NCBI RefSeq assembly: GCF_025698545.1
Contig: NC_068572.1
Span: 2,728,001-2,792,000, forward strand
Reading direction: 5' to 3'
Length of the DNA stretch: 64,000 nucleotides
Origin: Gossypium raimondii
Taxonomy: Eukaryota > Streptophyta > Magnoliopsida > Malvales > Malvaceae
The notes under the pieces are model-generated. The model was not told the origin of the DNA, made no database searches, and saw only the letters and a list, made by a program, of their open reading frames with translations. Positions within the stretch are counted from its first letter, which is position 1. Each line of letters begins with the position of its first letter. Of this stretch, positions 3,181-40,760 are shown piece by piece. A program made the position numbers and the translations under genes.

Positions 3181-3190
3181 AGATACTTTC

Positions 3191-3549
3191 ACAATTGCAT
3201 TAGATTTTTTTTAAAAAAAAATCAATATATCTATAATTCAATTTTATTATCTATAACTCTTTCTTATAAATTTTTTTTATAAACTAAAAATATGAAAAAA
3301 ACCAAGCAAAGGTTAAATAACTCATCATCATTTCTATCCAACTTTGTACATTAATTAATTAAAATGTAGATGAAATTAAAGATTTGTCAACATGCAGCTG
3401 CAGTTGTAACTCATAATCATCTTTGTTCAGTCTTATACTTTAACGAGTTAAAATGTAAATGTTTGAATTTTATTACATCAAAGTATTAGGTGCCCTTCAG
3501 CATATTGAGGTTTGAATACGGAGGTGAATTCGGGGAGTTACCAGGTTCC
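3191..3549. other. AT-rich gene-free stretch
   Basis: I see only homopolymer runs, one worn copy of the dispersed unit near 3300-3480, and no frame with coding character. Confidence 0.6.
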
Positions 3550-4148
3550 TTTATAAATTATAAATTTTAAATTAATAATAATAAAATTGCACTTTGGTCC
3601 TTCTAAAATAATAAAATTTGATTTAATTCTTTAAAATTATAAAATATAATCTATTAAAGTAATAAAATTACATTTTACTATAATAAAATATATAATTTAA
3701 TTTTTGTCCCAAATTTTTTTCTTACTTTGCTCAATCCTAATATTTACAACTTTTTTTATCATAACATTTTTAACGAAATATATATACGATTAGAATATGA
3801 TGTATTTTACTTTGAATAAATTAGAAAATTGATAAAATCAAATGAAGGTTAAATCATAATGATTTAATTAATAATTGTGTCTTTCCTACCTTATAACATA
3901 ATGAATTAAAAATATAAAAGAAGTTCAATGCATATTTTTTAATTTACGGTGTGGTGCGTTTAGTCTTTTTTTTTTTTACGTTACAGTATTTAATCTCACC
4001 GTTACCACTATTTTTATACTAATTGTAGGTAGACGCGTCGCTCATCCAACCTCATCCTTAAACTAGTTAGGAGGCATAAAAAGATATATGAAAAAAAAAG
4101 GAGGCATAAAAAGATATATTTTATTTTAAATAAATTAAAAAATTCGAA

Positions 4149-4868
4149 CTCCTAAAAGCCTATGCATTTTGTTATAATTTCCGATTGGATGATCCATTAA
4201 TTCAGGTGGCGGAAGATTATAAATAGATAATTTTTTAATTGTTGATTGGGGATAGATAGGCTTTCTATAAGGCCCATTTTACTGACAAAATTTATCACAA
4301 TTTTAGCGACTTTGGTGGCTTGGCCAATTACTCGAGATTCACAATTATTTCATTTCTTGATGCCAACAATGTATAGTGGTCAAATAGGGTTATTTTTTTC
4401 TCGAGATCTTTTACTTTTTTTCATCATGTGGGAGTTCGGATTAATTCTCGTTTATCTACTTCTATCCAGGGGGAAGAAATGTCTGTACTCGACTACAAAA
4501 TTTATTTTGTACACTACAAGGGGTTCCATTTTTCTATTAATAGGAGTTTTGGGTCTGGTTTATATGGTTCTAATGAGCCAACATTAAATTTTAAAACATT
4601 AGCTAATCAATCATATCCTATCGCACTCGAAATAATATTATATATTGGATATCTTGTTGCTTTTCCTATCAAATCACCGATTATACCCTTACCTATGTGG
4701 TTATCAGATACCCACGGAGAGGCCCATTATAGTACTTGTATGCTTCTAACCGAAATTTTATAAAAAATGGGAGCATATGGATTAATTCGATCAATATGGA
4801 ATTATTACCCCATGTGTATTCCATATTTTTTCCTTGGTTGATAATAGTGGGTACAATGCAAATAATTT
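4149..4868 (+). pseudogene. ndhD: Nuclear copy of chloroplast ndhD (NUPT), copy 2
   Basis: This is the same NdhD region as copy 1, here read as [71 protein letters not shown] and [14 protein letters not shown]. The open frame changes around 4490-4560, so the two longest open stretches (4246-4587 and 4428-4763) overlap in different frames. Some parts are closer to plastid NdhD than copy 1, and others are more decayed. This is what independent decay of a duplicated fossil would give. There are no gene ends and no function is expected. Confidence 0.9.
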
Positions 4869-4948
4869 AAAGCGTAGCAAAACCAAACAAAAGTTAAATC
4901 TTAACTCTTAAGCGGTTCTTTTCAATCTTAAAAAGGTGTAGTTCGTGT

Positions 4949-5591
4949 TAGAGGTGTGCATGGGCCGGGCCAGGCTAAGCTCAACTAAAAATTCAGGCCC
5001 GTTTGCTAGGCCTGAGCTCAGCTAGAAAAATGGGCCTAAAATTTTGTCCAAGCCCGACTCGGATAAAAATGCTAAAACCCGTGCCCGACCCATCCCGCCC
5101 ATATTAATTTTTATATTATTTTAAAATATATATAATACATAAAAAATACTAAAAATATCAAAATAAATATTTCCCAATAAATTGAAAATAAATTTTTAAA
5201 AATATGTATACTTGAATAACACTAAGATAGATGCAACTTAACAAGCAAATACCTCTAAAATAATAAAAAAATTAACAAATGTCTTTAAAATAATAACAAA
5301 ATTAACAATAAAATAAGTTTTATACAATATCCAAACAATAACAACAAAATAGTAGCAACATAATAGTAAAATGGTCGCAAAATAGGGAGAAAACAACAAG
5401 AAAATAATATTAAAAAACAAAAAAAGTAATTTTTTTGTCCTTCAATGAATTCGGGCCGAGCCTAGGCAAAAAATACCTTACCCAAAACCAGACTCGTTTT
5501 CTAAACAGGCTTTATTTTTTTGTCTAAACCCTCCCACATTTCGGGCGAACTTTCGGGTCGGGTCGGGTGGCCCGACCCATGAGCAGGTCTA
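4949..5591. mobile_element. hAT-type MITE with TAGAGGTG termini
   Basis: The element starts TAGAGGTGTGCATGGG and ends with the near-inverted CCCATGAGCAGGTCTA. GC-rich 'gggccggg' blocks lie inside each end and an AT-rich core lies between. The flanks are gttcgtgt (4941-4948) and gttcgagt (5592-5599), an 8-bp target duplication with one mismatch. The other duplicated arm has one uninterrupted gttcgagt at 1438-1445. hAT elements make 8-bp duplications. There is no transposase, so it is non-autonomous. Relatives lie at 28630-29217 and 49181-49649. Confidence 0.85.
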
Positions 5592-5801
5592 GTTCGAGTT
5601 TTAGCACGTGTAACTTTTCCTTACCTTAAAATTATAGACTTATTTGAGTAAACTAAAAAGTTAGACTTAACCAAACTAAAGTTAAATCTTAACTCTTAAA
5701 CAATTCTTTCTAATCTTGCACCATGATTAGTTAAAATATAAATGAAATTATAGATTTTTAAAGCATGTTAGTTAGATTTTACAGTTAATGTTTCTTTATA
5801 C

Positions 5802-6118
5802 GAGAGTGGTCAATTGGATTCTCTTGTATTAATTTATTTTGTTCGGTACACTAAGTGGATATGTGTCATTTAAGGGAGAGTGGTCAATTGGATTCTCTTG
5901 TATTAATTTATTTTGTTCGGTACACTAAGTGGATATGTGTCATCTAAGGGTGAGTAAACTTAAACGGTTCTTTTTAATCTTACACCATGATGAGTTAAAA
6001 TATAAATGAAATTATAGATTTTACCGTTAATGTTTCCTTATACGAGATTGGTCAATTGGATTCTCTTGTATTAATTTATTTTGTCCGGTAAACTAAGTGG
6101 ATATGTGTCATCTAAGGG
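5802..6118. repeat. 74-bp direct repeats, two in tandem plus one spaced copy
   Basis: Two almost identical copies (5802-5875 and 5876-5949) run head to tail. A third lies at 6043-6118 after a piece of the dispersed unit. Each begins 'gagagtggtcaattggatt' or a variant and ends 'gtgtcat(t/c)taaggg'. The last bases of copies 2 and 3 equal the terminus of the MITE that begins at 6113. Confidence 0.8.
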
Positions 6119-6585
6119 TGAGCAAAATTCGATTTGAAAAACTCGATAAATATTCAAATTTTGAATCAAATAGTTCGAGTTATTAAAGTTAATCGAGTTA
6201 TTCGGATCAACTCGAATAAAAAACAAATTTTTTGGTTTAACTCAAATATGAATTATACAATTCAAGTTATCCGAAAATTCGAATAAGAAAAAGTAAAACT
6301 ACATTGTTTTGATAAATGTTTTTCCATTAAGTTAAAAAGCAAAACCATTATATTGTTTAAATAATCTTTTATTTTGTCTACTAGTTAAATAATTGGTCTA
6401 TGTAAACGCAACATTAAGTATAAATAATAGGATTCGTTAACTCGACTCGATTTGACTCGAAATTTTTTAACTCAATTTGAAAAAAATTCAAATTGAGTTC
6501 GATTGTTAAAAAAGTATTCGTCAACTTGACTGACTCGAAATTTTTTGACTCAATTCGACTCGACTCGATCGAATGCTCACCTCTA
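6113..6585. mobile_element. hAT-type MITE with TAAGGGTGAGC / GCTCACCTCTA ends
   Basis: The left end TAAGGGTGAGCAAAATTCGA pairs with the right end, whose reverse complement is TAGAGGTGAGCATTCGATCG. The flanks gtgtcatc (6105-6112) and ctgtcatc (6586-6593) form an 8-bp target duplication with one mismatch. The inside consists of many 'actcga' and 'ttcgagtt' motifs in both orientations. There is no coding capacity, so it is non-autonomous. Confidence 0.75.
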
Positions 6586-6599
6586 CTGTCATCAAGTCA

Positions 6600-7560
6600 T
6601 TCTTTCAATATCATTTGTGGATTCTAAACGCTCTGCTAAGTACACTAAGTAATTTATTGAGGACTAAAGTTGTAATAATCATTAAAAAATAATGTAAGAA
6701 ATTCTAACCATTATATACAGAAAATTAAATATATGTAATGTTACGTTTAAATGTATCAAAATAAATCTTATTATTAATGAAGTTATATTTTATGCATTAT
6801 TTTATGAGGGCTTTTTAGGTCTCGATTAATATGAAACGATGGTTAAATTCTTGTCAAGCATTCATTTAGTACGGGTTAAAATCATGTTACGCCCATCCCC
6901 TACTCCCTATATAGTCTAAAAGACATGTATTAATTGATATTTTATTAAATTTACTATTTTTTTTAAAAAAAATTGTAAGCATTTTTTATTAAATTACAGT
7001 TAAATCTTAACTAGTAAGCATCTATTTTTCTAATCTTAGACCACTGTGAGTTAAAATGTAAAAGAAGTTGTAGATTTTTTAATGTAGATTTTTATGATTT
7101 TATAGTTAACATTGCGTAATTTAAGAATGGTTGATTAGATGAACATTCAAAAGGCAGAGTTCGAGTTTTTAGCATGCATAACTCTTCTTTATTAAGACTC
7201 CAACTTTTTATTGAAACCTATTTGAAGGCGTAACCAAACTAAGGTTAAATCCTAACTCAGTAAACGGTTTTTTTCTAGTCTTATACCATAATGGGTTAAA
7301 AACAAATGAAATTATAGGTTTTAAATGCATTTTCTTTAAATTTTATAGTTATCATTACCTTATACGAGAGTGGTGAGTTAGATTGTCTTGTATTACTTTA
7401 TATTGCCCAATACGTTAACTGGATACATATCATCACGTTATCCTATCAACCATGGGCGAATTTAAGGGGTCACGCAAGAGCCTTGCCCCCCTCTTAGAAA
7501 AAGGAAAAATAACCTTGCGGCCCCTTTATAAAAAAATATAATAAATTTGCACTTTGGCGG
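6600..7560. repeat. Direct repeat block left of the LINE
   Basis: The part 6765-7545 matches 9773-10530, and the part 6600-6770 matches about 10640-10860. Shared landmarks are 'tattattaatgaa', 'gtcaagcat', 'catttag', 'atgttac/tcccatcccct', 'cccaatacgttaactggat' and 'gggcgaatttaaggggtc'. It includes two worn copies of the dispersed unit (near 6998 and 7225). It contains no gene. Confidence 0.7.
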
Positions 7561-9775
7561 TTAGCGCACCTAATTAGTATTTGTTTGTCCTTTGAATGGA
7601 ATGGATAGGGCACCTAATCAGTGATGTAGTTGATCATGGGAATTGGACGCCTTTATTTCTATTTAGGAGAGGGTCGACTTTGTCCCATTTATTTTTTGTC
7701 AATGATCTTATGCTTTACTACGAGGCTGATATGGGTTAAGTGGTGCTTCTTAATGATATTCTTAATAGGTTCTATCACTTTTTGGGTTAAAAAGTGAATA
7801 AATGCAAGTCTTAGATTTTTTCCTCTCCTAATATACTGGACGAGTTAGCTGATGCTATTTGTAATCTTGTGGGGTTTGTTCGTGTGATTGATCTTGGTAT
7901 TTATCTGGGGTTACCATTGATGCATAACAGAGTTATGTCGAGTACTTTTGACTTTGTGGTTGATAAAGTCCGTAATAAACTATCTGGTTGGGATGTGAGG
8001 AACCTTTCTTTGGAAGGCAGAATAATGTTGGCCAAGTCGGTGCTCTTAGTTATACCAAATTATTTTATGTGTACGGTTTGTATTCTGGTCTCAGTGTGTA
8101 ATGAGATTGAGAGGATTGCCTATAATTTTATTCAGGGTACTTGTATCGAATCAAAGAAGCTGACTCTTTTGTCTTGGGGGCTTATTGTCGTCCAATAGAT
8201 AATAGAGATCTAGGGTTGCAAAGCCTTGCTGATTAGAATCAAAATTTTCTATTAAAGCTAGGTTTCCGGCTGCTTACCAATATGGATGCCTTGTGGGTTA
8301 GGTTTTGAGGAATAAGTATAATATACACGGGGTGTTGTTGGTCTCTATTGCTAAGAGTAATTGTTCATTTATTTAGAGATCTTTGATGAGAGTTTGGTCT
8401 AATGACATCACTAATGCATATTGGTTTATTGGGGATGGTTGGCTTGTAAACTTTTGAAATGACGTTTGGGTTTGACGGATTGGTCCTCCCTGAGGGTTTT
8501 ATACAGGATGATACTTTAAAAGTATGTGATTTGATAGACGTAAATGGTTGTTGAGACTGGTCTTGTCTATTCTTGCTATTATCGGTTAATATTGTTACAC
8601 AAATAACATCTATTGTGCCCCCTTCTAGTGATACATGTCAGGATTGGTTAGCTTGGAAATGGATGGAGAGAGGCATTCTTTCCACAATAGAAATGTTTAG
8701 AAATATGTATCAGGGGGACAGTATTGCGCTTGCTAATATTTGGAGGCTGATTTGGAATGCGAAAGCACCTCAGAGGTTTCAAGCTTTTATTTGATTGTTG
8801 TGGCAGAATAAGTTGTTAATGAATGGGGAACAAGTGAGGAAACACATGTCCAGTGACGGTCGTTGTCCTAGATGTGATAATGTGTTGGAAATTGGTCTCC
8901 ATACGATTTAGGAGTGCCCTTTCTCGAGATCGGTGTGGCTTGCAATGGTGTCGATTCATGCTTAAATTACGTTTTTATCATTGCCTCTTAATGAATGGTT
9001 ATTATAGAACTTGCACGATACACATGGTTGTGGTAGTATGGATGTGGATTGGCAAACTCTATTTTCCATACTATGTTGGTTGCTTTGGAAGAACCACAAT
9101 CTCTTTGTTTTTTTTCTAATGGTCATAATTGTGTAAATGATATTATGAATAATGGTTTTACTTGGGCAATGAGTTTTGCAACGTCACTCTCAAAGATCCT
9201 AGAACCTAATCCTATGGTCTCATTGAGGCATTGGACTCCTCTGGAGAATGATTGAATTAAATTTAATATTGATGGGGCTTTGGCTTCAGGTAACACTACT
9301 GCTTCTACGGGGGGTGTTTAGGGACTTTAATGCAAATTGGTTGGGTGGCTATTCAATGAGGATTGGCAAAGAATCTATCTTTAGGATTGAAGCTCGTGCA
9401 ATGTTGGAAGGTCTGCGCATTGCGTGGGACATGGGGTTCAGGCAGATTGAATTGAAATGCGATAATGCACTTCTGGTCGAGTTGCTTTTAGCTGGATGGC
9501 ATGCATATAGTAGATTGGTGGAGTTACGCTTAGTGCGCCAACTTCTAAGTAGGAATTGGAAAGTAAGGATTCATCACAGTCTAAGATCTCTAAATGAAAT
9601 GGCTGATCATATGGAAAAAGGTATTGTAAGTGGCTAGCACTTCTATAGTGGTTTAAGGAGCCATCATCCTCTGTGGTTAATTTATTGTTGGCTGATTGTA
9701 ACTCTTTCATGCATATTTAGTTTGAGGGTTTGATGTAATTGCTCTGTGCTATCTTTTTTCTACCAAAAAAAAATC
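7561..9775 (+). mobile_element. Degraded, 5'-truncated LINE (non-LTR retrotransposon)
   Basis: In order along the + strand, across several frames, are: the end of a reverse transcriptase (SHLFFVNDLMLYYEAD, where the usual FADD box reads FVND), the connecting region (GLPLMHNRVMSSTFDFVVDK, KLSGWDVRNLSLEGR, AKSVLLVIPNYFM), a zf-RVT-like part (IWNAKAPQRFQAF, then RCPRCDNVLE) and an RNase H domain (FRIEARAMLEGLRIAWDMGF, IELKCDNALLVELL). The order is that of plant L1-type LINEs with a 3' RNase H. It ends in a short A run near 9766-9773. Several stops and frame changes, the missing 5' end and the altered catalytic box show that it is dead. It lies between long direct repeats of unrelated sequence. 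Confidence 0.85.
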
Positions 9776-10860
9776 CTATTATTAATGAATTTATATTTTA
9801 TGCATTATTTTATGAGGGTATTTTGTGTCTGTATTAGTATGAAATAATGGTTAAAACTTTTGTCAAGCATCCATTTAGCATGGGTTCAAACCATGTTATC
9901 CCATCCCCTAATCCCTCTATGGTCTAAAAAACATGTTCTGATTGATATTCTATTGAATTTATTAATCATTTTTTAAATTGTAAGCATGTTTTATTAAACT
10001 AAAGTTAAATCTTAACTTGTAAGCATCACAGTGAGTTAAAAGGTAAACGAAGTTGTAGATTTTTGTAATGCATATTTTTTAGATTTTATAATTAACATTG
10101 CATGATTTAAGAATGATTGGTCCGATGAACATTCAAAAGGCAAAGTTCGAGTTTTAGCATGCATAATCCTTCTTTATTAATATTGTGACTTTTTGTTGAA
10201 ATTTATTTAAAGACGTAACCAAATCAAGGTTAAATCTTAACTCTATAAACGGTTTTTTCTATTCTTATACCATGATGGGTTAAAAAAACAAATGAAATTA
10301 TAGGTTTTAATTCATTTTCTTTAAATTTTATTGTAATCATTGCCTTATACGGAGAGTGGTGACTTAGATTGTCCTGTATTACTTTATATTGCCCAATACG
10401 TTAACTGGATACATATCATCACGTTATCCTATCAACCAGGGGCGAATTTAAGGGGTCGCGTAACGACCTTGCGCCCCCTCCCAGGAAAAGGGAAAATTAA
10501 CCTTGTGGTCCCCTTATAAATAATAAAAAAAACAAAAATAATATTAACCTTTTAAAAAATAATGAAATTATTAATTGATAAATTAATAAAATTACATTTT
10601 CACATTTCAAAAATTTATAATTCAATTCCACCCCTAAAAAATTTCATCAATTCGCTCTTGGAATCAACGTTGTTTGTGGACTCTAAACAGTACTCCATTA
10701 ATAACGAACTAAATAATTTCTTATAATTATTAAAAAATAATGTAAGAAATCCTAGTAATGATATGTAGAAAATTAAATATAATTAATGTTACTGATACAT
10801 TATATATAAATCTATACATTATTAATGCATTAAAATAAATCATATTATGGGATTTTAATC
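9773..10860. repeat. Direct repeat block right of the LINE
   Basis: This is the counterpart of the block at 6600-7560. It begins exactly at the LINE's A run with 'tcctattattaatgaa' and continues to the 'gggcgaatttaaggggtc' motif and beyond. The 10640-10860 part matches 6600-6770. It probably belonged to a tandem array of a ~0.9-1 kb unit that the LINE entered. It contains no gene. Confidence 0.65.
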
Positions 10861-17303: not shown

Positions 17304-18042
17304 TTTAAGAATTTTTTTGGGGTTTAGGGTTTAGTATTTCAGAAATTTTTTGAATGAATTAAAAAAAAAAAAAACCAGAACAATTTTATAGAATAAAATT
17401 CAAAGCTCTTGAAGAAAACGCAGAGACGAAAAAACAGGGGAGAAAAGAGAAAGCCGGTCTTGATAATCACCGTGTCAAAAACGACAGCGTGTGATTAACG
17501 TAAATTGACTGCAAACGACGCCGTCTACTAGGCTAGTTTTTTTTTTTTTTTTAATTGCCTATATTGTTATTTTGTATAGCATTTAAATTATTTAATTTAA
17601 AAAACCATTAAACTAAAGGGTAAACAACATTTGAATCAACTATTTATCATCTAATTATGAAAAATTACAAAATAGTCACTTATCTATTTGATTTATTCTT
17701 TTTTGTCACCAACATCTAAATTATTAACGAAAATATAATTTGACAGTTTTAAAATTAATATAATAACAACTTTAACCCTCAATACTTGTATATTATTAAA
17801 ATTAGATAATACCAACCAATTTGAGCAATAAGAACCAATTAATTTGATAGTTCAAATTATTATAAAGAAATACTTTTAGAAAAGGTGGCACGTATCAAAT
17901 TGAAATCCATATGCAATAGTTGTATAAAGTGAAACTCAAATTTAGATACTCACGATAACTTTAACATTTGTCAATAGTATCAAAATATTGTTATTGATTT
18001 AATGATAGTATTAAATGCAATCACATATATAATCATATTCGT
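17304..18042. other. NMNAT upstream region and AT-rich spacer
   Basis: The first 230 bases are the likely leader and promoter of NMNAT, with an AAACGACGCCGT motif at 17513-17524 of a kind common near plant promoters. The rest is AT-rich. Around 17618-17760 there is a worn relative ('gggtaaac', 'aatcaactatttatcat', 'tagtcactt') of the MULE-type MITE at 50026-50377. No gene is seen. Confidence 0.5.
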
Positions 18043-20680
18043 TGTCGGAGTAACTATAGTCAATCAGATAGCATACAACCATTTATACATGTAAACCAGT
18101 GCCAATCACATTCAATTCATGTTAATCAAAAAATTTCAAGTCTTAATCGAGCTTACGAAAGCTCTTTTGTTGACTCGAGTATGAAATGGAATCAAATTGC
18201 AAAGTTTTAAAAGTTTAAGGTCGATGTCATGATGTCACCTCCTTCACGTGGTGATGTCGCCAAACGGTTTCTCATGTCGTGACCTCAGGCCACTCAACGT
18301 CGCAATATGATTCACTGTCGGCCGGCGTTGCGACGAAGAAGGTTGGTCATCGAGACGTGGGTTCTATTTTTGATAAAATTAAACCATTTGGTACCTATTT
18401 CAATGCTTCATTACATATCTATCATTATGTTCAGCAAAACATCATTTTTACTTGATTTCAAACTTACCAAATCACGTTAAACAATTCAAACATTCAATCC
18501 AACCAATAAACAAGCATTCAATACATAATCTCCAACTAAACTCGAACAATTCAAATGACATTTTATTTTAACATTTAGCCATTTAAATGCCAACCCTTGT
18601 TTATGCCATAACATCTTGAAGCATACCATTCTCTTTTTAGTTAATCAAATACATGCCAAATCACAATTCAACCAAGACAACATGTGCCATTTCATATAAG
18701 CATCAACCATTTCCAAACCTTCATTCATGCCATTTCATATATCATTCCTTTGATTATAATTCACCTCACCTATTACCATAAGCACATATATGTACTCAAC
18801 AACATAAATGATTTAGGTTATTAATTCAATATGATCATTAAAGGTTAAAGCAAACTTATCATAAGTAAGCATATTTACATGCTAAGTTATATCACAAGAC
18901 ACCTTATATACATGTCATAATTTATGACTCAAAATTATCAAAAGCTATCAAATCAGTGATAAGATAGTGTGAGCTTTCCAACGATCCGGCTTGACGCGTT
19001 CCGTAAGATGATGATCTAAAAGGGAAATAGGAAACAAACGGGATAAGCATATAAAATGCTTAGTAAGTTCATAAACATTAAATAAAACTTACATTAGCTT
19101 TCAATTAAATACAAAAGGCTATCACAAGTTGCATGTTTTAGCTAGCATGGCAAACCAAAACGTTAACAATGTGAGTATTTACTTATATACAATCATATGA
19201 TATCACAACTAAATAATATGTCAACTCAAGTCATTTACTTAACCAAACTCAAAACTTATTCAATTAAGGATTGTTACAATCATTTATATATATGACAATG
19301 TCAACATTTCAATACCATACTTATGTTCAATTTAACAATTGTCCATTTGGACACTAAGTTCATATCATGTAAATTTCACATTAATCATTTTGTCTGAGCA
19401 AAGTATATTCATATCAGGTTACCAGTTCAAGATAAACATTTATACGAAACATCTGATTGCTTATCCAAATTAAAAGTATACATGTCAGGTTATTTGTCTG
19501 AGCTAAACTTTTAAAATTACATTAAGATACTAGTCCAGGCTAAACATGTGTCACATGTGTCTTCGAGTCCACAACAAATGTTGGATCTCAGTAATATCTG
19601 TAACCAATCTTGTACAAGCATTCACAAAACTCTATTGGCATTGGCATGTCAATCATATCCTAACCTTTAATAAGTTCACACAGGCCTTATTTCCTCTTAT
19701 ACCATCATTTTACAATTCAAACCAATTCTCACATTTTTCATCAATTCATAACTAAGCCCACATATAAATCAAATACACAACAACAATATATAAATAATTA
19801 GCATATGAACTTACCTAGTCAAAACAACAAACCAATTGAATCCTCAAGGACTATTCGACAATTTTGACTTTTCCCTAATTATCTTCGGTTTGATTCAATT
19901 CTTGATCTAAACAATTATTTTAAACAATTCATCAATACCAAACATTTTATATCATTCCATGATATGAATGAATCTATTTAACTCTATTTTTGAATGCCCT
20001 TAATTTTTTACATTTTATTCAATTTAGTCCCTAAAACTGAAATAACAATATCTTTCAAATTTGAGTTTTGGTTTCAAAACCGATCTCAATCACATTCATT
20101 ATAGACCCTCTACTATCTATTATTACAAAATTTTATATCAATTTCATAACTTATTCACTTTAGTCATATGTACAAAAACTAAAATTAATCATTGCAATTT
20201 AGTCCTTTTCCATATCTAAGCTTAAAATATATCAATTTAACACCAAAATCTTCAAGAAATCAACAATGGCAACTTTCAAAAACTTTAACAATTTTAAAAA
20301 TTAGGTGGAAGAAGAAAAAAGTACTTTTCACTTACAAGCCGTTTATACTTTAGTTTATTCCTTAATCACCTAAGTAACTTAATTAAACTTCAATCTCAAT
20401 TAACCAAAGTTAGTGGAAGATAACATCATTCTCCACTATTTTATTAAGTAAAATGGTTTAATTATCATTTTGAATCTTTTGCTATTTAAAGTTCTATAGT
20501 GGTAAGATTTTTACAATTTAGTTCTTGTAAACAATTAATAGAAAAAATTGAAGGACTAAACTCTAATATTTTTTATATAAACTCCGTAAATATTTATAAT
20601 TAATATTTACGGACTCGATTTGCGAAAATGGAGTTTCGAAACTGTCTTTTTCGGCACCATTAAAAATCGAGATTTATGTT
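18043..20680 (-). mobile_element. Worn long LTR (Ty3/gypsy-type), partial
   Basis: This matches the LTR at 30318-33128 over nearly its full length and in the same orientation. Shared landmarks are 'agctcttttgt', 'gcttgacg.gttcc', 'gggataagcatataaaat' and the closing region near 20600-20680. No internal coding part is attached, so it is a lone LTR or its remnant. It is strongly diverged from its relative and carries many scattered differences, which points to an old insertion. It is a broken fossil. Confidence 0.7.
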
Positions 20681-22084: not shown

Positions 22085-24853
22085 ATGGAAAATAGAAAAG
22101 AGGGTGAAATTGAGGACATGCCAATGCCATTGTCCCCACCAACAATGGGGTCTATGCAGATTGCAGGAAGCAATGGTTTTGGTCATAACATTGAGTTCAT
22201 GTCTCAGGCTTACCTCAGAAACCGATACTCTGAGATTGATATTGAGGACTACACCGTGTATGCTGATAAAGACCACCCTCTCCCCATATTTCTCAAGGTA
22301 GTTGATTTCTTGGGTTCTTTTGATTTATTTGATATTTATCGGTATTAACTTTTTCTATTGGTTTCGTAAATGAAGTTTGAAGATGTGGAATACAAGGTTC
22401 GAAGTAGCCAAGCCGCCTCAATCAACCCGGTGCGAGTGGTGGTGTCAAAGTTTGCCTCGCAACTTAACTTGGAACAAGATAAATACAAGGAGATCCTTAA
22501 AGGTGTAACAGGCAGCACTGGCCCTGGTGAAATCCTAGCTTTGATGGGTCCTTCTGGTAGTGGCAAAACAACCTTGTTAAAAATAATAGGTGGAAGGTTG
22601 ACAGATAATGTGAAAGGGAATATAACATACAATGACATACCTTACAATCCGGCTCTTAAACGAAGGTTAGCTCATTTTTATCGAAGCTTTTCTTTTTTCT
22701 GTCATTCAGTCGATTTTGAGTGTTTCATTTTCTTGCAGGATTGGTTTTGTGACACAAGATGATATCTTGCTCCCCCAACTAACAGTGGAAGAAACCTTAG
22801 TTTTTTCAGCATTTCTGAGACTTCCGAGTGACATGAGCCTGCAACAAAAGTATGCAAAAGTAGAGATGATTATGAAGGAGCTAGGCCTTGAAAGGTATGA
22901 ACTATGATCATCACTGAGATAACAAACAGACCTTTTACCTTCTTTTCTAAGTTATCTGTTGCATAACTGTAGATGTCGTCACACGAGAATCGGGGGAGGA
23001 TTGGTTAAAGGAATATCAGGAGGAGAAAGAAAAAGGACTAGTATTGGCTATGAAATTCTTGTTGATCCTTCATTGTTGTTGCTCGATGAACCAACTTCGG
23101 GTCTTGATTCCACCTCAGCCAATAAACTTATTCATATTCTTCAAGGAGTTGCTAAGGTATCCTAATTGACCATAACATGTACAAAATGCACCATTTTCAT
23201 ATAACAAATTAGTAAATGGTTGATGTTCTACAGGCAGGGAGAACTGTAATCACAACAATTCACCAGCCATCAAGCCGAATGTTTCACATGTTTGACAAGC
23301 TTCTCCTGATATCGGAAGGATACCCTATTTACTCCGGGAAGGCAAGAGAGTGCATGGAATATTTTTCATCATTGCGATTCATCCCGGAAATAGCAATGAA
23401 TCCAGCTGAGTTCTTGCTTGATTTAGCAACTGGCCAAGTTAATGACATAACTCTGCCTGAAGATCTAGTGGCATCTCAAGGAACTGCTGATTCAGACAGG
23501 GCTGTAATCAAAGTATAAACTCCTTCAAACTAACAATTTAAGTGGGCATTGAATCCCTTTCTATGATCTTCTCCTGAAAACAATTTTTTCTTTACATCAT
23601 ATTAGTATCTTCAACTCAAGTATAAAACTCATTTGGAGCCAAAGGAAAAGGAAGAGAATCATCGAAGTACCAAGGCGCCACAACAACTTCAACTAGCCAT
23701 TCAAGTTAAGAAAGACTGGACAATAACTTGGTGGGAGCAGTTCATGATAATAATGAAGAGAACCTTTCGAGAAAGACGAAGGGATTACTTCGATAAACTA
23801 AGATTACTACAATCATTAGGAGTTGCAGTCTTACTAGGTCTGCTTTGGTGGAAATCCAGTGCTGCAACCGAGGCTCAACTGAGGGATCAAGTAAACATTT
23901 CTCAAACTTCATTATACAATTCTTTGAATCCCTATTACATTAATCAGTATGTGTAAAGTGCAGTTTTCCACACTCTTTTTTGTTTTAGGTTGGTCTGCTA
24001 TTCTACATATGCATTTTTTGGACATCTTCATCAATTTTTGGAGCAGTATATGTTTTTCCTTTCGAAAAGGTATATTTGGTGAAAGAAAGGAAAGCCGACA
24101 TGTACAGGTTAAGTGTATACTATGTTTGCAGCACTCTGTGTGACATGGTAGCACATGTTTTGTATCCTACATCATTCATGTTGATTGTCTACTTCATGGC
24201 TGGCTTTAAGAGAACAGTCGTTTGTTTCTTCCTCACATTGTTTACCATCTTACTGATAGCAATTATAAGCCAAGTAAGTCAAGCAATTTCGGATATAAGA
24301 CTTATTTTCATTAAAGACTCGAATATCTCTTTCAACTAATGCAATCTTAAAACCTAACAAATGAACAAAATTAGGGAGCAGGAGAGCTATTTGGGGCTGC
24401 AGTTTTGAGTATTAAGAGGGCCGGGATGATGGCCTCTTTGGTTTTGATGTTGTTTCTTCTAACAGGAGGTTACTATGTCCAGGTACTTTAAAACTACCAT
24501 GAAAATCGGTTCCAAGTCTTCATTAGAGAAAACTATGAATGAGTTCACTAAAAAATGTGGAGTGTGTTGTTTTTGTTTTGCAGCATATACCGAAATTTAT
24601 GAGGTGGATGAAGTACTTATCTTTCATGTACTATGGCTTTAGGCTCCTGGTGAAAGTGCAATACTCTGGAGATCAATTGTACGAATGTCAAAGCAAAGGT
24701 GGCTGTCGGACTCTGCAGAATTCACCTTCGTTTGATACGGTTAACCTCGATGGAGGCTTGCAAGAAGTATGGATTTTACTTGCCATGGCGCTAGGCTACC
24801 GATTGTGTGCTTACTTTTGCCTGCGCAAAAGAATCAGTGGATGTCATATTTGA
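22085..24853 (+). CDS. ABCG26: ABCG26-type half-size ABC transporter (pollen wall)
   Basis: This is a plasma-membrane half transporter of the WBC/ABCG class. The Arabidopsis ABCG26 protein acts in the tapetum to export polyketide/lipid precursors of sporopollenin for pollen exine. Exons: 22085-22297, 22376-22665, 22739-22894, 22973-23156, 23234-23512, 23606-23890, 23989-24273, 24375-24482, 24584-24853, giving 689 residues (Arabidopsis 685 as I recall). The order is ATPase then membrane domain: Walker [10 protein letters not shown] (129-137), Q-loop [10 protein letters not shown], signature ISGGE (234-238), Walker B LLLLDEP (254-260), H-loop TTIHQPSS. The C-terminal half has about six membrane helices, including [20 protein letters not shown] and [30 protein letters not shown] near the N-terminus and [16 protein letters not shown] are ABCG26-specific. 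Exon 6 has two in-frame acceptors, 23605 and 23620; the upstream one keeps the family's YLxxxYKT. The gene looks intact. Confidence 0.95.
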
Positions 24854-25333: not shown

Positions 25334-27979
25334 TTAATCAACTTCCTCCATCTTGCTGCCTTCGGCATCAGCATCCTCCAATGGGGGCATATCAGCATCA
25401 GCTTCACCTTCACCTGCATCCTCATCAATGCTCAAGCCGAGTTTCAGCATCCTGTGGATTCTGTTGCCAAAGGTGTTAGGGTCATCAAGGCTGAAGCCAG
25501 AGGTGAGGAGAGCAGTCTCGAAGAGAAGGAGAACAAGGTCCTTCACAGATTTATCATTCTTCTCTGCATCGGCTCTCTTTCTCAGCTCTTCCATGATGGG
25601 GTTCTCCGGGTTGATCTCCATTGTCTTCTTGCTTGACATGTAACCAGCCATGCTGTTATCCCTCAAAGCCTGGGCCTTCATGATTCTCTCCATGTTTGCA
25701 GTCCAACCATACTCGCCAGTCACTAAACAGCAAGGTGAGTCAACAACACGATCAGAAACCACAACCTTTTCAACCTTGTCACCCAGCACATCCTTGATGA
25801 CCTTGCAAAGACCCTCAAACTTTTCCTTCAAAGCTTCCTTCTTCTTCTTCTCATCCTCACTCTCATCAAGTTTAAGACCTTCCTTGGTAGCTGACACAAG
25901 CTTTTTGCCCTCAAATTCTTTGAGCTGTCCGACAGCATACTCATCAATAGCATCAACCATGTAAAGGACCTCATAACCCTTCTTCTTCAGCTTCTCAAGG
26001 AAGGGAGAGTTCTCAACTGCCTTTTTACTCTCACCAGTGATGTAGTAGATATCATTCTGACCCTCCTTCATTCTGGTCACATAGTCCTTCAAGCTGGTCA
26101 GCTCATCACCACTCTTGGTGGAGTGGTAGCGGAGCAATTCGGCAATTTTAGTCCTGTTCTGAGAGTCCTCATGGATACCAAGCTTGAGGTTCTTTGAGAA
26201 TGCCTCATAAAACTTGTTGTAATCTTCCTTGTTCTCTGCTATTTCAAAGAAGAGCTCAATGCACTTCTTTACCAAGTTCTTCGGATAACCTTCAAGATCT
26301 TGTTTTGCTGCAACATTTCTCTTGAGATGTTCAAAGGAAGGTCCTCTGAGTCGACAATACCCTTAACAAAGCTGAGGAATTCAGGAATCAACTCCTCGCA
26401 GTTGTCCATGATAAAGACACGTCTCACATACAGCTTAATGTTGTTGGGCTTCTTCCTTGTGTCAAAGAGATCAAAAGGAGCCCTCTTGGGGACAAAGAGG
26501 ACAGCCTTGAACTCAAGTTGCCCCTCAACTGAGAAGTGCTTGACGGCCAAATGCTCTTCCCAGTCATTTGTAAGGCTCTTGTAGAAAGCAGCATATTCTT
26601 CCTTGGTAATCTCCTCAGGCTTCCTCATCCAGATGGGCTTCTGTTTGTTCACCAAAGACCACTCGTGCGACACCTCCTTAATCTTCTTCTTTTTCTTTTC
26701 TTCCTTCTCTTTCTCCTCATCAACATCCTCAACTTTCCCTTCTTCGTCCTTCTTATCCTCCTCATCTTCATCATCAGAAATCTCCTTCTCAGTGGTCTTC
26801 TCAATCCAAAGGGAAATCGGGTAGCTAATAAATTCAGAATGCTTCTTAATCAAATCCTTCAAACGTCGCTCCTCAAGGTACTCAAGCTGATCCTCTTTCA
26901 AAAACAGAGTAATCTTTGTACCCCTACCAAGGTTCTCCCCGGAAGTATCCCTGGTAACAGTGAATGAACCACCAGCTTGGGACTCCCACACATATTGTTC
27001 ATCATCATTATGCTTTGCGGTTACAATAACCTTCTCAGCAACCAAGTATGCGGAGTAGAAACCAACACCAAATTGACCAATCATACTAACGTCAGCACCA
27101 GCAGCCAGTGCTTCCATAAACTCCTTAGTACCAGATCTTGCGATTGTACCAAGATTGTTCACCAAATCTAAACAACAGAAATATATAAATGCATTAGATT
27201 CCCATTTTAAACGAAACTCCACAACTAAATGCACAATAGTTGATACTCCAATACTCAAGAAAACACTTACCAGCCTTAGTCATGCCAATACCACTGTCAA
27301 TGATGGACAGTGTATTGTTAGTCTTGTCTGGAATAATGTGGATGAAGAGCTCAGGTTGAGCATCGAGCTTGCTCTTGTCTGTCAAGCTCTCGAACCTGAT
27401 CTTATCCAAAGCCTACAGGTAAAAGATTTAACATCATATACTAATCACTAACCACACCAAAAAGGCACTTCAGTTATGTTACACGCATTAGATTCACGAG
27501 ATCTTTCTTATTTACTCTTTTACATTCAAAGAAACCAAAAAAATGTACTAACATACCGCTTCAATTAAGTTCCAATAAGCATAAATTAACGGCCAACTAA
27601 AAATACAAAAGCTAAACCCTAAACCCTAAAAATATTTCACTAACAAAAGCATTATGCAAATCAAAACAAACAACCACTGAACAGAAAATTACGCATTAAA
27701 CATCATAATAACATATATCCAAATCCAAAATAAACTCCAACATTTCTATTATGAAACAAACAAACAAAAAGAAATCCATCAATATCGAATAAAGAGATCA
27801 GATCCATACAATCACGCATAAAAAAAAATCAAAAACTATTATTAAATAGAACTTACATCAGAGGCGTTACTGATAAGCTCACGAAGAAAGATCTCCTTGT
27901 TGCTGTAGAAAGTGTTGATAATCAAACTAAGAAGCTGATTGATCTCAGCTTGAAAAGCAAACGTCTCAGTATCCGCCAT
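25334..27979 (-). pseudogene. HSP90: Cytosolic HSP90, copy 1, with a one-base frameshift
   Basis: This is an ATP-dependent chaperone gene of the cytosolic class. Exons are 27979-27857, 27412-27271 and 27167-25334 on the minus strand. The ATPase residues are present: Glu34 and Asn38 in [17 protein letters not shown] from Asp80, and [11 protein letters not shown]. The acidic/lysine-rich linker and the start of the middle domain follow. At about 26280 one base is missing compared with copy 2 (ttcttcgg against ttcttgcgg). The frame then reads VIRRTW and stops, giving about 387 residues. The remaining 313 codons, ending in MEEVD, are open in the next frame. A true mutation and a sequencing or assembly error are both possible. 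The splice sites, TATA box and upstream block are intact, so the gene may still be transcribed. Confidence 0.9.
27613..27630. promoter_or_regulatory. Telo-box pair in HSP90 copy 1 intron 1
   Basis: Two AAACCCTAA units run in tandem on the + strand inside the first intron. Telo-boxes are common in the promoters and first introns of plant translation and growth genes. Here the role is only inferred. Confidence 0.4.
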
Positions 27980-28117: not shown

Positions 28118-28158
28118 CCTTATATAGGGGAACTTCATTAGGGTTTCTAGATCCTTCT
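28118..28158 (-). promoter_or_regulatory. HSP90 copy 1 core promoter
   Basis: On the minus strand a TATA box (CCTATATAAGG) at 28118-28129 is preceded by a telo-box (AAACCCTAA) and by GAAGGATCTAGAA at 28143-28155. The last reads as a three-unit heat shock element with one mismatch (GAA, ATC for TTC, GAA). The same block occurs upstream of copy 2 although the surrounding sequence differs. Confidence 0.6.
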
Positions 28159-30312: not shown

Positions 30313-30317
30313 GTCGT

Positions 30318-33300
30318 TGCCGAAGCAATTACAGTTAATTTACAAGAAAATAATCATAATCGCATGTAATTTAACATCAAACACATTCATCTATAGTTAA
30401 AGAATCAAAACTGAGTCTTGTTCAAGCTTACAAAAGCTCTTTTGTCAACCTGAGCTCAAAATAGGACCAAATTGCAAATTTTTAAAATTTCAAGGTTGAC
30501 GTCGTGACGTCTCCAAATAGTTTGTCATGTTATGACCTCAAGCCTCTCGACGTCACAACGTGACTCACATTGATCGACATTGCGACGAGATAGGTTACTC
30601 ATCGGGATGTGAACTCTGTTTTTGGTAAAAAAAAAATGGACCATTTGGTACCTATTTCAAATATTCCCAAACATACCTATCAATTTACGCACCAAAGCCA
30701 ACTTCAATTGAATAAAAACATACCTCAAGCATACCAAAACACATAACATTTCATACCAAATCAAGTCATCAACTACTTCCATTCAACCATTTCAACATAA
30801 GTTCAACTATTATCAATTATTCATTTTCATACATTCCATCAAATACCATTCCATATAAATCAACCAAACCATTCAATTATCAATCCTTACCTAGGCCAAG
30901 TCATATAGGATCATGCCATTTCATTTTCATTTCAAAGACTTCAGCATATTTGCACATCTATTCATTCAACTTACCATTTCTTCCATATTTAACTTTTAAC
31001 ATATCAAATGACATGTTCAAGTTTAAAATCATCAATTAAACCACATCAAGCATTAGCTAATATTTCATACACCATCTAGTACATACCAATTTTTCAACAA
31101 CTCAATATTTGCCACAAATATCAAACGTACCAAATGATCAACATAGTGACTATTTCCTTAACATCTAATCCTTATTTACATGTCACGATCCCAAAACTCA
31201 AAGTGATCAAAAAGCTTACCAATTTAAGGATAGTGTGAGTTTCGAGGTAATCCAGCTTGACGTGTTCCACAAGGTATTGATCTACAAGGAAAAGGAAAAA
31301 CAACGGGGTAAGCATATAAAATTCTTAGTAAGTTCATATGAAATTTACATTACTTACCTTAACAATTCAACAAGCTAGATTACTAAACATATTGACATTT
31401 AATTGCCCTTCCTTGACATACTTTGATGCAACTAAGACACATAAACATATACAACCAAATAGGTTAGTCAATTTGCATACCAAGATCATTAAGTAAGTAA
31501 TCATATACCATAACTCAATTTGAAAGCATATGCAACCCAATATATGCCCAAACCATTTTAATATTTCCATTTCCATTAGGTTAAAGTTTCGTCTGAGGGA
31601 ACTATAGTAAAACGAACTCGGATACACGGGAATATTTTCCTTACACAACCTGAGATTTTAACGAAAATGCTCACACAAGTTGGCATCGTATTAAGGTTAC
31701 TAGTCCAGGCTAAACCAATGATACATATAACTTGAGAATCTGCAACAAATGTTATATCTCGTATCATCATGTAAATCCCTGATCGATTACGTGTATAATC
31801 CTAATGACATGTAATATGTATCTTAATCTTTTACTAAGTTCACACGGGTATTATTTTCGTCTACATATCATTAACAAACCTTGTACTAGTTTACATATTT
31901 CATACAAGTGCTGTAAACATTCAACATTCACATTTGATACTCCGTACCTATTCGTAATAACCAATATTTTCATGTTTTTCAATTCAGTCCATGTGAACTC
32001 AAATATGTTAATTTCACATATTAAGTATAAACACACAATTGAAACAATACAATTCAAAAAAAAATTAATAATTTCCATATGAACTTACCTGGTAAAACAA
32101 CAAATAAACGAGTCTTTGAGGACTAATTGACAATTTTTGCTTTTCCTCAATTTCTCTGGTTTGGTTCAATTTTCGATCTATATAATTATTCAATTCAATT
32201 TATCAATACTAAAAATTTTTATATCATCTCATAATATGCATGAACTAGTTTAAATTCCATCTTTTCGAATGCCTATAAAAATTTACATTTTATTCAATTT
32301 AGTCCCTAAACCCGAAATAGCAATAACTTTCAATTTTAAGCTTCAATTTCAGAGCCGATCTTAATCACATCCTTCTAGGACCCTCTATTATCTATTATTA
32401 TAGAAATTTCATATCAAATATTCAATGTATACACTTTAGTCATTTTTGACAAAACTAAGAATTAAACTTTAAAATTTGGTCCCTTTTTTCACATCTAAGT
32501 TTAAAATTTATAAATTTAACATCAAATTATTTAAGAAATCATCAATGGGAACTTTCAAAAACTTTAACAATTTTTACAAATTGGTACATGGGCTAGCTAA
32601 ATCAAGCTCCCATGACCACAAAAACATAAAAGTTACACGAAAAGAACTTAATTGAGCATACCTAATAGTTGCTGAAACTTTGAAGCTTTTGAAACCCTAT
32701 TTCTCCCTTTTAGTTCGGTGGAGAAGATGGTGCAGAGAAAAAAATGATTTGTTTTTCTTTTAATTTTTGCTTATATACCTTTAATTAACTTGATTAATCA
32801 TAATTAATTAATAAAAACTTAATTAATTAAACCTTAAGTGTAATCAACCAATGGGTTTTAAATACATCCACCACTATTTGAAGCAATTAAAATGGTTTAA
32901 TTGCCTTTTTGATCCTTTAGCTATTTAAAAATCTATAGAGATAAGATTTTTATAATTTAGTCCATGTACCCTAATTAACTATCAATTCGGAAAAATTACT
33001 GGATAAAAATTTAATATATTTTTATATTAACCTCGTAAATATTAAATATTAATATTTATGGACTTAAACTACGGAAATAGGGTTCTGAAACCATAGTTTT
33101 TGACACCACTAACAATCTGGTTGTTACATAGTTTCTTCCGGCTCCCATGTAGCCTCTTATGTACTGTAATGATGTCATAATACTTTCATTAGTGCCACAT
33201 GTTTATTTCTTAAATATTTTACTTCTCGAGCTAAAATCTTTACCGATTCTTCACTATACATCAAATCAGGATGTAACTCTATTTCATCAGGAGATAACTT

Positions 33301-34040
33301 ATGGGATAGATAGGATATATATCTTGGTAACATTGATATGTGGAAGACATTATGAATCTTGTCTAATTATGGACGTAGAGCTAGTTGATACGCTACAGGT
33401 CCAATTCTTCCAAGAATCTCATGCGACCCAATAAACCTCGGACTGAGTTTTTCTGTTCTGTCAAAATGCAAAACTTTCTTCCAAGACAAAACTTTCAGAA
33501 AGACTTTATCACAAATCTGAAATTCAATGTCTTTTCTTTTTAAGTCACTATAAGACTTTTTTCTGTCGAAAGCAACTTTCAAACAGTCTCGAATAATCTA
33601 GACCTTTTCTTTAATTTATTGTATCAAATCAGTTCCTGTTAACTTTCTTTCACTCAACTCTAGCCAGCATAGAGGAGTTATGCATTTACAACCATATAAA
33701 ACCTCATAAGATGTCATTTTAATGCTCGGATGATAACTATTGTTGTAAGCAAACTTAGCTAACGGTAGGAATCTTTTCCAGCCACCTTCAGATTTAATCA
33801 CACAACATCGTAACATATCTTTGAGTATTTGAATCACTCGTTCTGATTGTCCGTCAGTCTGAGGATGAAACGCTATACTGAAATTCAGTTTCATACTCAA
33901 GGCTTCGTGTAATTTACCCCAAAATCTGGAGGTAAATCTTGAGTCCCAGTCTAAAATGATAGACAATGGCACACTATATAATCTGACAATATTTGAGATA
34001 TAAATTTCAGCTAACTTCTCATGGTAACCATTACTATCTT
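30318..34040 (-). mobile_element. Ty3/gypsy retrotransposon remnant: 3' LTR plus end of pol
   Basis: On the minus strand the end of a polyprotein (integrase core with HPQTDGQSERVIQ and AYNNSYHPSI, then the tail with DKVFLKV, GPVAYQL and EATWEPEE) runs from about 34040 down to about 33130. A long LTR follows at 33128-30318, about 2.8 kb with TGTAACAACC...CA borders and a TATA-like box near 32775. The 5' LTR, gag and most of pol are absent, and the coding remnant carries at least several breaks. It is an old, dead fossil. A more worn relative of the LTR lies at 18043-20680. Confidence 0.85.
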
Positions 34041-34706
34041 CCTAAATAAAAATGTTAATTAATTACAAATAATAATTAAATTATTTTTCCTGGACAAATG
34101 ACTTGTGACCATTTTACTTTTCCATTTATCATGTCATGCCGATGAAAAAATATCATTTACCATATTTGGGCTATGAATTCCACTATTGTAAGTGGTGTTA
34201 TGTCATGCAGAAGTTGTATGCCTAATGTACCAACTTTTGACTCTATTACCAATTTGAACTTGGGTTTTTAATATCTATGCAAAGAAGGGCAGAAGGTCTT
34301 TGGGAGAACCCTTTAGGAAAACACTAGACAAGAACATCCCTAGATTGTCAAGTGTTGAACTTGTTCCCTTGGTTGAAGGATCTTCACTTGTAGCTACTTC
34401 TTTGTTGAAATATGTTCCTCCGAATGTTGTTGCCTCCACCCCTTTGAATAGCCTTTAAGGTACTAGCCTGTAAATGAGCTTGAAGGTTATAGAAATCGCA
34501 CCCTCCTTCAAGTGGCAAAGACATATGTCCCTCTACTAATATATCTTTAGTCTACCTTTTATTTTCTTACTTGTGTGTTGGTTTTTTTTTATAACGAATG
34601 AGAGAGAAAACTTGGAGTAAAAACTTCAATTGTTGGAGGGGGAATTGGAAGTTTTAAAGAATAAGTGTTTGAATGAGGATAGTCACCCGAAAAGAGACCA
34701 ATTACA
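34041..34706. other. Coding-like remnant of unknown origin, part 1
   Basis: GC content and codon-like texture rise between about 34240 and 34700, with short open pieces in different frames. The last ~110 bases read as a charged, helix-forming stretch. The text resumes at 35917 after the solo LTR, so this was one continuous sequence before that insertion. I do not recognise the protein; it may be part of another decayed mobile element. Confidence 0.35.
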
Positions 34707-37651: not shown

Positions 37652-40584
37652 TTAGTCAACTTCTTCCATTTTGCTGCCTTCAGCATCAGCATCCTCCAAT
37701 GGGGGCATATCAGCATCAGCTTCAGCTTCACCTGCATCCTCGTCAATGCTCAAGCCGAGTTTCAGCATCCTGTGGATTCTGTTGCCAAAGGTGTTAGGTT
37801 CATCAAGGCTGAAGCCAGAGGTGAGGAGAGCAGTCTCAAAGAGAAGGAGAACAAGGTCCTTCACAGATTTATCATTCTTGTCTGCATCAGCTCTCTTTCT
37901 CAGCTCTTCCATGATGGGATTCTCCGGGTTGATCTCCATTGTCTTCTTGCTTGACATGTAACCAGCCATGCTGTTATCCCTCAAAGCCTGGGCCTTCATG
38001 ATTCTCTCCATGTTTGCAGTCCAACCATACTCGCCAGTCACTAAACAGCAAGGTGAGTCAACAACACGATCAGAAACCACAACCTTTTCAACCTTGTCAC
38101 CCAGCACATCCTTGATGACCTTGCAAAGACCCTCAAACTTTTCCTTCAAAGCTTCCTTCTTCTTCTTCTCATCCTCACTCTCATCAAGTTTAAGACCTTC
38201 CTTGGTAGCTGACACAAGCTTTTTGCCCTCAAATTCTTTGAGCTGTCCGACAGCATACTCATCAATAGCATCAACCATGTAAAGGACCTCATAACCCTTC
38301 TTCTTCAGCTTCTCAAGGAAGGGAGAGTTCTCAACTGCCTTTTTACTCTCACCAGTGATGTAGTAGATATCATTCTGACCCTCCTTCATTCTGGTCACAT
38401 AGTCCTTCAAGCTGGTCAGCTCATCACCACTCTTGGTGGAGTGGTAGCGGAGCAATTCGGCAATTTTAGTCCTGTTCTGAGAGTCCTCATGGATACCAAG
38501 CTTGAGGTTCTTTGAGAATGCCTCATAAAACTTGTTGTAATCTTCCTTGTTCTCTGCTATTTCAAAGAAGAGCTCAATGCACTTCTTTACCAAGTTCTTG
38601 CGGATAACCTTCAAGATCTTGTTTTGCTGCAACATTTCTCTTGAGATGTTCAAAGGAAGGTCCTCTGAGTCGACAATACCCTTAACAAAGCTGAGGAATT
38701 CAGGAATCAACTCCTCGCAGTTGTCCATGATAAAGACACGTCTCACATACAGCTTAATGTTGTTGGGCTTCTTCCTTGTGTCAAAGAGATCAAAAGGAGC
38801 CCTCTTGGGGACAAAGAGGACAGCCTTGAACTCAAGTTGCCCCTCAACTGAGAAGTGCTTGACGGCCAAATGCTCTTCCCAGTCATTTGTAAGGCTCTTG
38901 TAGAAAGCAGCATATTCTTCCTTGGTAATCTCCTCAGGCTTCCTCATCCAGATGGGCTTCTGTTTGTTCACCAAAGACCACTCGTGCGACACCTCCTTAA
39001 TCTTCTTCTTTTTCTTTTCTTCCTTCTCTTTCTCCTCATCAACATCCTCAACTTTCCCTTCTTCGTCCTTCTTATCCTCCTCATCTTCATCATCAGAAAT
39101 CTCCTTCTCAGTGGTCTTCTCAATCCAAAGGGAAATCGGGTAGCTAATAAATTCAGAATGCTTCTTAATCAAATCCTTCAAACGTCGCTCCTCAAGGTAC
39201 TCAAGCTGATCCTCTTTCAAAAACAGAGTAATCTTTGTACCCCTACCAAGGTTCTCCCCGGAAGTATCCCTGGTAACAGTGAATGAACCACCAGCTTGGG
39301 ACTCCCACACATATTGTTCATCATCATTATGCTTTGCGGTTACAATAACCTTCTCAGCAACCAAGTATGCGGAGTAGAAACCAACACCAAATTGACCAAT
39401 CATACTAACGTCAGCACCAGCAGCCAGTGCTTCCATAAACTCCTTAGTACCAGATCTTGCGATTGTACCAAGATTGTTCACCAAATCTAAACAACAGAAA
39501 TATATAAATGCATTAGATTCCCATTTTAAACGAAACTCCACAACTAAATGCACAATAGTTGATACTCCAATACTCAAGAAAACACTTACCAGCCTTAGTC
39601 ATGCCAATACCACTGTCAATGATGGTCAGTGTATTGTTAGTCTTGTCTGGAATAATGTGGATGAAGAGCTCAGGTTGAGCATCTAGCTTGCTCTTGTCTG
39701 TTAAGCTCTCAAATCTGATCTTATCCAAAGCCTACAGCGAACATGTACAAGATTAAACGAACTACTAGCATTATGTTATGCACGTTAGATTCACGAGATC
39801 ATTTTTATTCACTATTCATCCATACCAATAAAGAGCACAAATTCAAACCAACCTTTAAGTCTAAAAAATCAGTCATTTGGACAACAAATGAACATAGCGT
39901 ATCATGTATTGAATAAACAAGCTACCAGGAACAGGTTTAACATTATTTTAATTACTAATCATACCTAAAGGCCCCTTAATTTGCAGTATGTTTAACAAAA
40001 TTAGATTCACGAGATCATTTTCACTCACTTTTTTACAATTCATAAACACCAATAAAGTGCGCAATTTGAATCTAACAACATGAAGCTTTCATAAAAGAAG
40101 GAAAATTCTCACTCTCGACTAACTTTTATGCATACAAAATTACTCACTTTTATCCGTAACGATAAAAATACATCAAATGCTAAATCTAAAAATCTTTTAC
40201 TGACTAATAAAAGCCATATGCAAATCAAATTGAATAACCAATGAACAGACATCCAGAATTAAACGTCAGAATAACCCTGAACAAAACCTATACCTTCCAT
40301 CATGAAGAATGAACAAACAAACAAAATCCACCATCATCAAATCACAAAATATCAGATTCATTTAAAAAAAGCATTCAAAAGGAAATTAAAAAAAGAAAAA
40401 GGAAAACTCAATATTTCTCAGTTTTTAAAAACGAAAAATATCATAAAAAAAGGAAACTTACATCGGATGCGTTGCTGATGAGCTCACGAAGAAAGATCTC
40501 TTTGTTGCTGTAGAAAGTGTTGATGATCAAGCTAAGAAGCTGATTGATCTCAGCTTGGAAAGCAAATGTCTCTGTATCCGCCAT
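37652..40584 (-). CDS. HSP90: Cytosolic HSP90, copy 2, intact
   Basis: This is a dimeric ATP-driven chaperone of the cytosol and nucleus that matures kinases, receptors and NLR immune proteins. Exons 40584-40462, 39731-39590 and 39486-37652 on the minus strand encode 699 residues, the standard length. N-terminal GHKL ATPase: catalytic Glu34, Asn38 in ELISNASD, Asp80 in DSGIGM, and [15 protein letters not shown] charged linker of about 35 Asp/Glu/Lys residues lies near 215-255. The middle domain carries [19 protein letters not shown]. The C-terminal dimerisation domain ends in MEEVD, the TPR co-chaperone dock. The gene has two introns like the constitutive plant members. The stretch from about 37925 to 39620 looks identical to copy 1, including intron 2, apart from the base missing there. 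Confidence 0.97.
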
Positions 40585-40721: not shown

Positions 40722-40760
40722 TTTATATATAAAACTTAATTAGGGTTTCTAGATCCTTCC
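40722..40760 (-). promoter_or_regulatory. HSP90 copy 2 core promoter
   Basis: The minus strand has a TATA box (tttatatataaaa at 40722-40734) preceded by a telo-box (AAACCCTAA) and GGAAGGATCTAGAA. The latter is the same imperfect heat shock element (GAA, ATC, GAA) as in copy 1. Conservation of this block, while the rest of the upstream DNA has diverged, supports function. Confidence 0.6.

Follow-up and report, generated by a model that had tools for sequence, protein, structure and literature searches.

Linked inducible hsp70 genes of Drosophila and mammals are described, in the sections of the sources drawn on here, as evolving in concert by ectopic gene conversion (PMC3924832, PMC5865164). 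For conversion between C. elegans paralogues, the tracts listed in PMC3966223 range over 12-2,958 bp with a clustering at 50-200 bases, and the same review, in the pertinent passage, warns of incomplete duplication as a source of such a pattern. An excerpt of PMC4287439 puts the average of yeast meiotic conversion tracts at about 1.8-2 kb, to which the 1.7-kb tract reported below is close. Among plant genes, intergenic exchange is documented for Arabidopsis RPP8, with little between the tandem duplicates themselves in the portion of that account cited here (PMC6771003), and Arabidopsis HSP90.2-4 are termed very recent duplication products in a passage of PMC1920555. A limited literature search found no title on gene conversion in plant HSP90 genes among the matches listed.

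The window considered here, i.e., the whole analysed stretch of 64,000 nucleotides of Gossypium raimondii DNA (C8:2728001-2792000, within a 750-Mb genome of 281 contigs), contains two HSP90 genes, copies A and B, both on the minus strand in direct orientation with about 12.3 kb between them. Judged from their sequences, a recent interlocus gene conversion of about 1.7 kb after an old tandem duplication appears to be the best explanation of this pair, and one in which we have considerable confidence. The relevant features are:

25334..27979, minus strand: HSP90 copy A, coordinates mapped from copy B; frameshifted
27857-27979 (exon 1), 27271-27412 (exon 2), 25334-27167 (exon 3), minus strand: exons of copy A
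27413-27856 (intron 1), 27168-27270 (intron 2): introns of copy A
37652..40584, minus strand: HSP90 copy B, encoding an intact 699-aa protein with C-terminal MEEVD
40462-40584 (exon 1), 39590-39731 (exon 2), 37652-39486 (exon 3), minus strand: exons of copy B
25602..27306, 1705 bp, minus strand: putative converted tract in copy A, no substitution versus B, one base missing
37920..39625, 1706 bp, minus strand: partner tract in copy B, no substitution versus A
26281..26282, minus strand: site of the single base missing from copy A (B 38600), from sequence comparison of A with B
25334..25601, 268 bp, minus strand: 3' coding flank of the tract in A, 11 mismatches, synonymous 7/56; candidate older conversion layer
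27307..27412, minus strand: 5' coding flank in exon 2 of A, 5 mismatches, synonymous 4/21; candidate older conversion layer
27413..27856, minus strand: intron 1 of A, differing from B at 142/430 aligned positions, with 314 gap columns

Copy B matches the Pfam models PF00183 (799.2 bits) and HATPase_c (33.8 bits) and, having both of these domains and the C-terminal MEEVD, which we take to be the signature of cytosolic HSP90, is a cytosolic plant HSP90. The genome has at least seven HSP90 genes of cytosolic type (the type being judged by similarity); a stop-free match is seen in six of the seven, the exception being copy A. Next most similar to the pair are single genes on C1 (88% to the tract) and C13 (86%), followed by three remoter genes on C2, C12, and C8 (76-77% over the longest match).

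The tract comprises the end of exon 2, intron 2 in full, and exon 3 except for the last 268 coding bases. The two tract sequences become equal when the one G that B has in excess (38600) is removed, and the identical runs on either side of it, of 680 and 1025 bases, compare with 57 for the next longest run between the genes. The original prediction had placed the limits at 25600-27310, i.e., within at most 4 bases of the exact ones, and the missing base near 26280; its claim of base-for-base identity apart from that base, intron 2 included, holds, with 0 substitutions in the alignment. There is no A-B change at about 314 synonymous sites and none at the 103 positions of intron 2, and the homogenisation thus extends to neutral sites (0/314 and 0/103) and not to the protein alone.

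Beyond the tract, each copy retains paralogue-specific flanks on either side. There are 10 mismatches in exon 1 (123 bp), with synonymous changes at 10/24 sites, and the stretches of UTR differ at 56/150 (5') and 64/192 (3') positions (33-37%), in line with the prediction of largely diverged untranslated regions. Where at least seven changes had been noted in the last ~280 coding bases, and several in exon 2 outside the tract, we count 11 mismatches in 268 bp and 5 in 27307-27412, respectively. The first introns, originally called unalignable, do in fact align (67% over 430 columns, the gap columns numbering 314), and they are therefore old relatives. Synonymous site counts throughout are rounded and exclude two edge-straddling codons, both of which carry a single mismatch immediately beyond the tract limit. 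Marking all mismatches between the two loci thus leaves a tract with 0 substitutions between diverged flanks, which refutes equal divergence of the two.

The contrast is significant by Fisher's test, both for intron 2 versus intron 1 (p=3e-16) and for the tract versus the inner flanks (p=9e-9). We further aligned A, B, and the C1 and C13 genes and retained 304 silent polymorphic codons after removing those with gaps or amino-acid differences; A and B differ at 20 of the 304, none of them through a base inside the tract. A permutation test in the manner of GENECONV, after an idea presented in PMC3924832 and distinct from the GENECONV program itself, was applied to these codons. The run of 240 consecutive silent-polymorphic codons in which A equals B was reached in 0 of 100,000 permutations (maximum 154), and by this measure exceeds the expectation from the flanking divergence; the other five gene pairs, at 5,000 permutations each, have longest runs of 3-5 codons, which are unremarkable.

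Given the high conservation of HSP90 proteins, one might invoke strong purifying selection on the middle of the gene, or a low rate of mutation there, for the identity. However, the same synonymous sites and intron that are unchanged between A and B have diverged from the other paralogues: the tract has a Ks of 0.72-0.73 relative to the C1 gene and 1.07 relative to the C13 gene, with intron 2 differing at 47/100 and 31/86 positions, respectively (36-47%), so that neither selection nor a mutational cold spot explains it, and we accord this reading practically no probability. Since the divergence of these two paralogues from A and B is about as strong inside the tract as outside, the tract, whose limits are evident in the alignment, is not slow-evolving and displays no local slow-down; thus, A and B are identical where both are free to change. 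The high coding identity would agree with a plain recent tandem duplication, yet intron 1, exon 1, and the UTR stretches are 8-37% diverged within the collinear duplicated segment, and divergence is not even across exons, introns, and flanks. It is because of these strongly diverged flanks that we reject such a duplication as hardly credible, concurring with the prediction that it fits the uneven divergence poorly. The shared middle could in principle have arisen through a pair of crossovers, or through unequal crossing over with the subsequent loss of a unit, given that direct repeats are able to recombine unequally. As each copy keeps its own flanks on both sides, however, this would need two closely spaced exchanges, and with no third copy found among the best candidates we deem it very improbable.

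The original prediction had also allowed for an assembly collapse and copy, i.e., an artefact that carried the sequence of one paralogue over into the other during local gap filling or consensus building. The one-base deletion in A, outside any homopolymer, would favour this, as it sits where short reads are presumably not uniquely placeable for polishing. Yet the window is without N and none is listed in the compared loci either; the flanks of each copy are paralogue-specific and collinear on both sides; the tracts differ by one base, so that A and B are not simply one consensus pasted twice; and polishing would not normally be expected to remove the differences that a 4-5% divergence implies over 1.7 kb. 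Moreover, genome searches scoring the best candidates found no third or unplaced copy and no hidden haplotig: matches of 100% to the tract occur at two places only, and each first intron occurs once at full length, accompanied by weak partial matches to the intron of the other copy and, for that of A, an additional 37-base match on C10. Within these searches, the two tract locations and the single full-length first introns give no indication of a haplotig or third copy, and the artefact, weakened on all these counts, keeps a small share of probability as an unlikely account. The identical tract, the diverged flanks, the permutation test, and the comparisons with C1 and C13 together support the recent gene conversion of about 1.7 kb that had been predicted.

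We propose that an old tandem duplication gave rise to two directly repeated HSP90 genes of cytosolic type, separated by 12.3 kb, and that, recently, one copy would have served as the template for the repair of a break in the other, probably via non-crossover double-strand-break repair. This repair would have overwritten about 1.7 kb, spanning the end of exon 2, intron 2, and most of exon 3. On each side of the tract there would remain paralogue-specific coding sequence, followed by intron 1 or the 3' UTR, where divergence probably restricts strand exchange, and at least one earlier conversion may have reached further than the young tract. Such non-crossover repair from the sister gene fits the 12-kb spacing of the direct repeats, the flanks kept on each side, and the single identical block. 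As regards the donor, the C1 and C13 genes stand at the same distance from A as from B at the synonymous sites of the 3' flank, and the missing base is private to A either way, so that neither copy can be named.

The absence of changes at 417 neutral sites bounds the divergence at 0.0072 (95%). Plant substitution rates are 3.5e-9 to 7e-9 per site per year, and with these the upper limit for the conversion would be about 0.5 to 1 million years, far below the age of the duplication itself. The age of duplicates as read from the coding sequence is therefore misleading here, in that the tract alone would, at the same rates, date the duplication to less than about 1 million years, and intron 1 and the UTRs of the same pair reveal a far older split. 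This bears on the dating of tandem chaperone genes and on gene-family trees, and the pair offers a natural test of how far a conversion tract reaches before diverged sequence halts it.

The missing base shifts the frame of copy A, which ends after 387 aa versus 699 in B. The A-B coding flanks show 21 synonymous versus 3 non-synonymous changes (edge codons excluded), from which copy A looks otherwise constrained, and its loss, if real, is therefore probably young. The missing base may be a residual sequencing error in a stretch to which short reads cannot be assigned, or it may be an ordinary later mutation; we favour these two readings over a third, in which it may have been made during the repair itself. 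With respect to the latter, an excerpt of PMC4287439 reports that mutations near the break rise 100 to 1000 times in yeast mitotic break repair, with frameshifts predominant.

The coding sequence adjoining the tract is itself less diverged than the outer parts of the gene: the inner flanks have synonymous changes at 11/77 sites, versus 10/24 in exon 1 (p=0.008), and are less diverged than intron 1 too (p=0.0007). Among the outgroup pairs, the corresponding values for inner flanks and exon 1 are 37.5/76.8 and 11/24 for A-C1, 36.5/77 and 12/24 for B-C1, 44/76.6 and 7/24 for A-C13, 45/76.8 and 12/24 for B-C13, and 42/76.9 and 13/24 for C1-C13; thus, the inner flanks are at least as diverged as exon 1 in four of the five, with the fifth, B-C1, slightly lower. 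It is because of the lower divergence of the tract-adjacent coding sequence relative to exon 1 and intron 1 that we tentatively propose an older conversion, one of exons 2-3 surrounding the young tract, as the best account of these values, albeit on small counts (24 and 77 sites, exon 1 being 41 codons). Tentatively, and at somewhat less than an even chance, the pair may be old and repeatedly homogenised by nested conversions confined to exons 2-3, with one protein body shared and the upstream regions, first exon, first intron, and UTRs evolving independently. If this were general, plant cytosolic HSP90 clusters that have been called very recent duplicates could be old, with their clocks reset.

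The surroundings of the genes contain several further elements. A GAA-n7-GAA motif, which we take to resemble a gapped heat-shock element, occurs upstream of both copies, at 28145-28158 in A (AGAAGGATCTAGAA) and at 40747-40760 in B (one base different), and also upstream of the C1 and C13 HSP90 genes. Beside copy A, at 22370-24853, lies an ABC transporter gene (Pfam ABC_tran and ABC2_membrane_7 over the cut-off), presumably of the ABCG type; a counterpart beside copy B, sought for dating the duplication, was not found. A dispersed element is present twice in the window:

18039..20668 and 30314..33117, no strand assigned: dispersed 2.6-kb element, two copies with 64-69% identity

The offset of these copies (12.28-12.44 kb) is nearly that of the HSP90 pair, and they may represent the periphery of the old tandem duplication; elsewhere in the genome, the element has at least 107 more matching pieces. 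In tblastx comparisons of the neighbourhood, judged by the best 15 non-HSP90 rows each, C1 gave short pieces of low identity, and the pieces with C13 lay at 30.3-33.5 kb, mostly within the dispersed element. A 141-aa open frame at 33616-34041 (minus strand) is by eye retrotransposon integrase-like, with no Pfam match at E 0.001. An interleaved cluster of repeats, about 78-98% identical, occupies 32-10827 and includes the pairs 571-1446/4083-4949 and 6758-7545/9766-10532. Of the many repeat pairs in the window, three were profiled: no conversion plateau was found in 571/4083 (85-93%) or in the 2.6-kb element (45-80%), and the pair 6758/9766 has an identity of 83-87%, rising to 97% in the last bin.

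Two other tandem chaperone pairs of the same genome provide comparisons. A multi-exon HSP90-family pair at C6:124325-135287, GRP94-like by our guess, is 96.7% identical over 4.7 kb, with the first two of 23 bins of 200 bases at 80% and 87%, the other 21 at 97-100%, and a longest identical run of 581; this nearly even profile is what we would expect of a plain recent duplication, with conversion of the whole gene also possible. A tandem HSP70 pair at C12:2112501-2115600 (L044) and C12:2128801-2131900 (L045) has, by bins of L044, an identity of 95-97% at 201-800, 99-100% in the nine bins of 1101-2000, and 97-100% up to 2800, whereas identity falls towards the ends, to 82-88% for the first two bins and 38-86% for the final three; its longest run is 355. 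From this profile, with a middle of 99-100% between sides of 95-99%, it may be a candidate for a further conversion in this genome.

The process inferred for copies A and B is of a known kind, of which they make a good ordinary example, with the repeated events a weaker, plausible hint. Like the hsp70 genes, as portrayed in the sections of PMC3924832 and PMC5865164 used here, they are closely linked chaperone paralogues with homogenised coding sequence and are under purifying selection too. Unlike them, the genes here encode HSP90 in a plant and are direct repeats with introns, showing a single long young tract with visible limits, whereas the Drosophila hsp70 pairs are mirror-image (PMC3924832, PMC5865164, same sections). 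They likewise recall the converted C. elegans paralogues listed in PMC3966223, namely two hsp modules and col-12/col-13, in having near-identical coding parts and diverged flanks, and the conversion of col-12/col-13 includes an intron, as does the HSP90 tract. This tract is inside the C. elegans range although long relative to its 50-200-base cluster, and incomplete duplication is no explanation for the HSP90 pair because both flanks still align. The arrangement is also like that of Arabidopsis HSP90.2, HSP90.3, and HSP90.4, which, in the pertinent passage of PMC1920555, are cytosolic HSP90 genes clustered within 12 kb.
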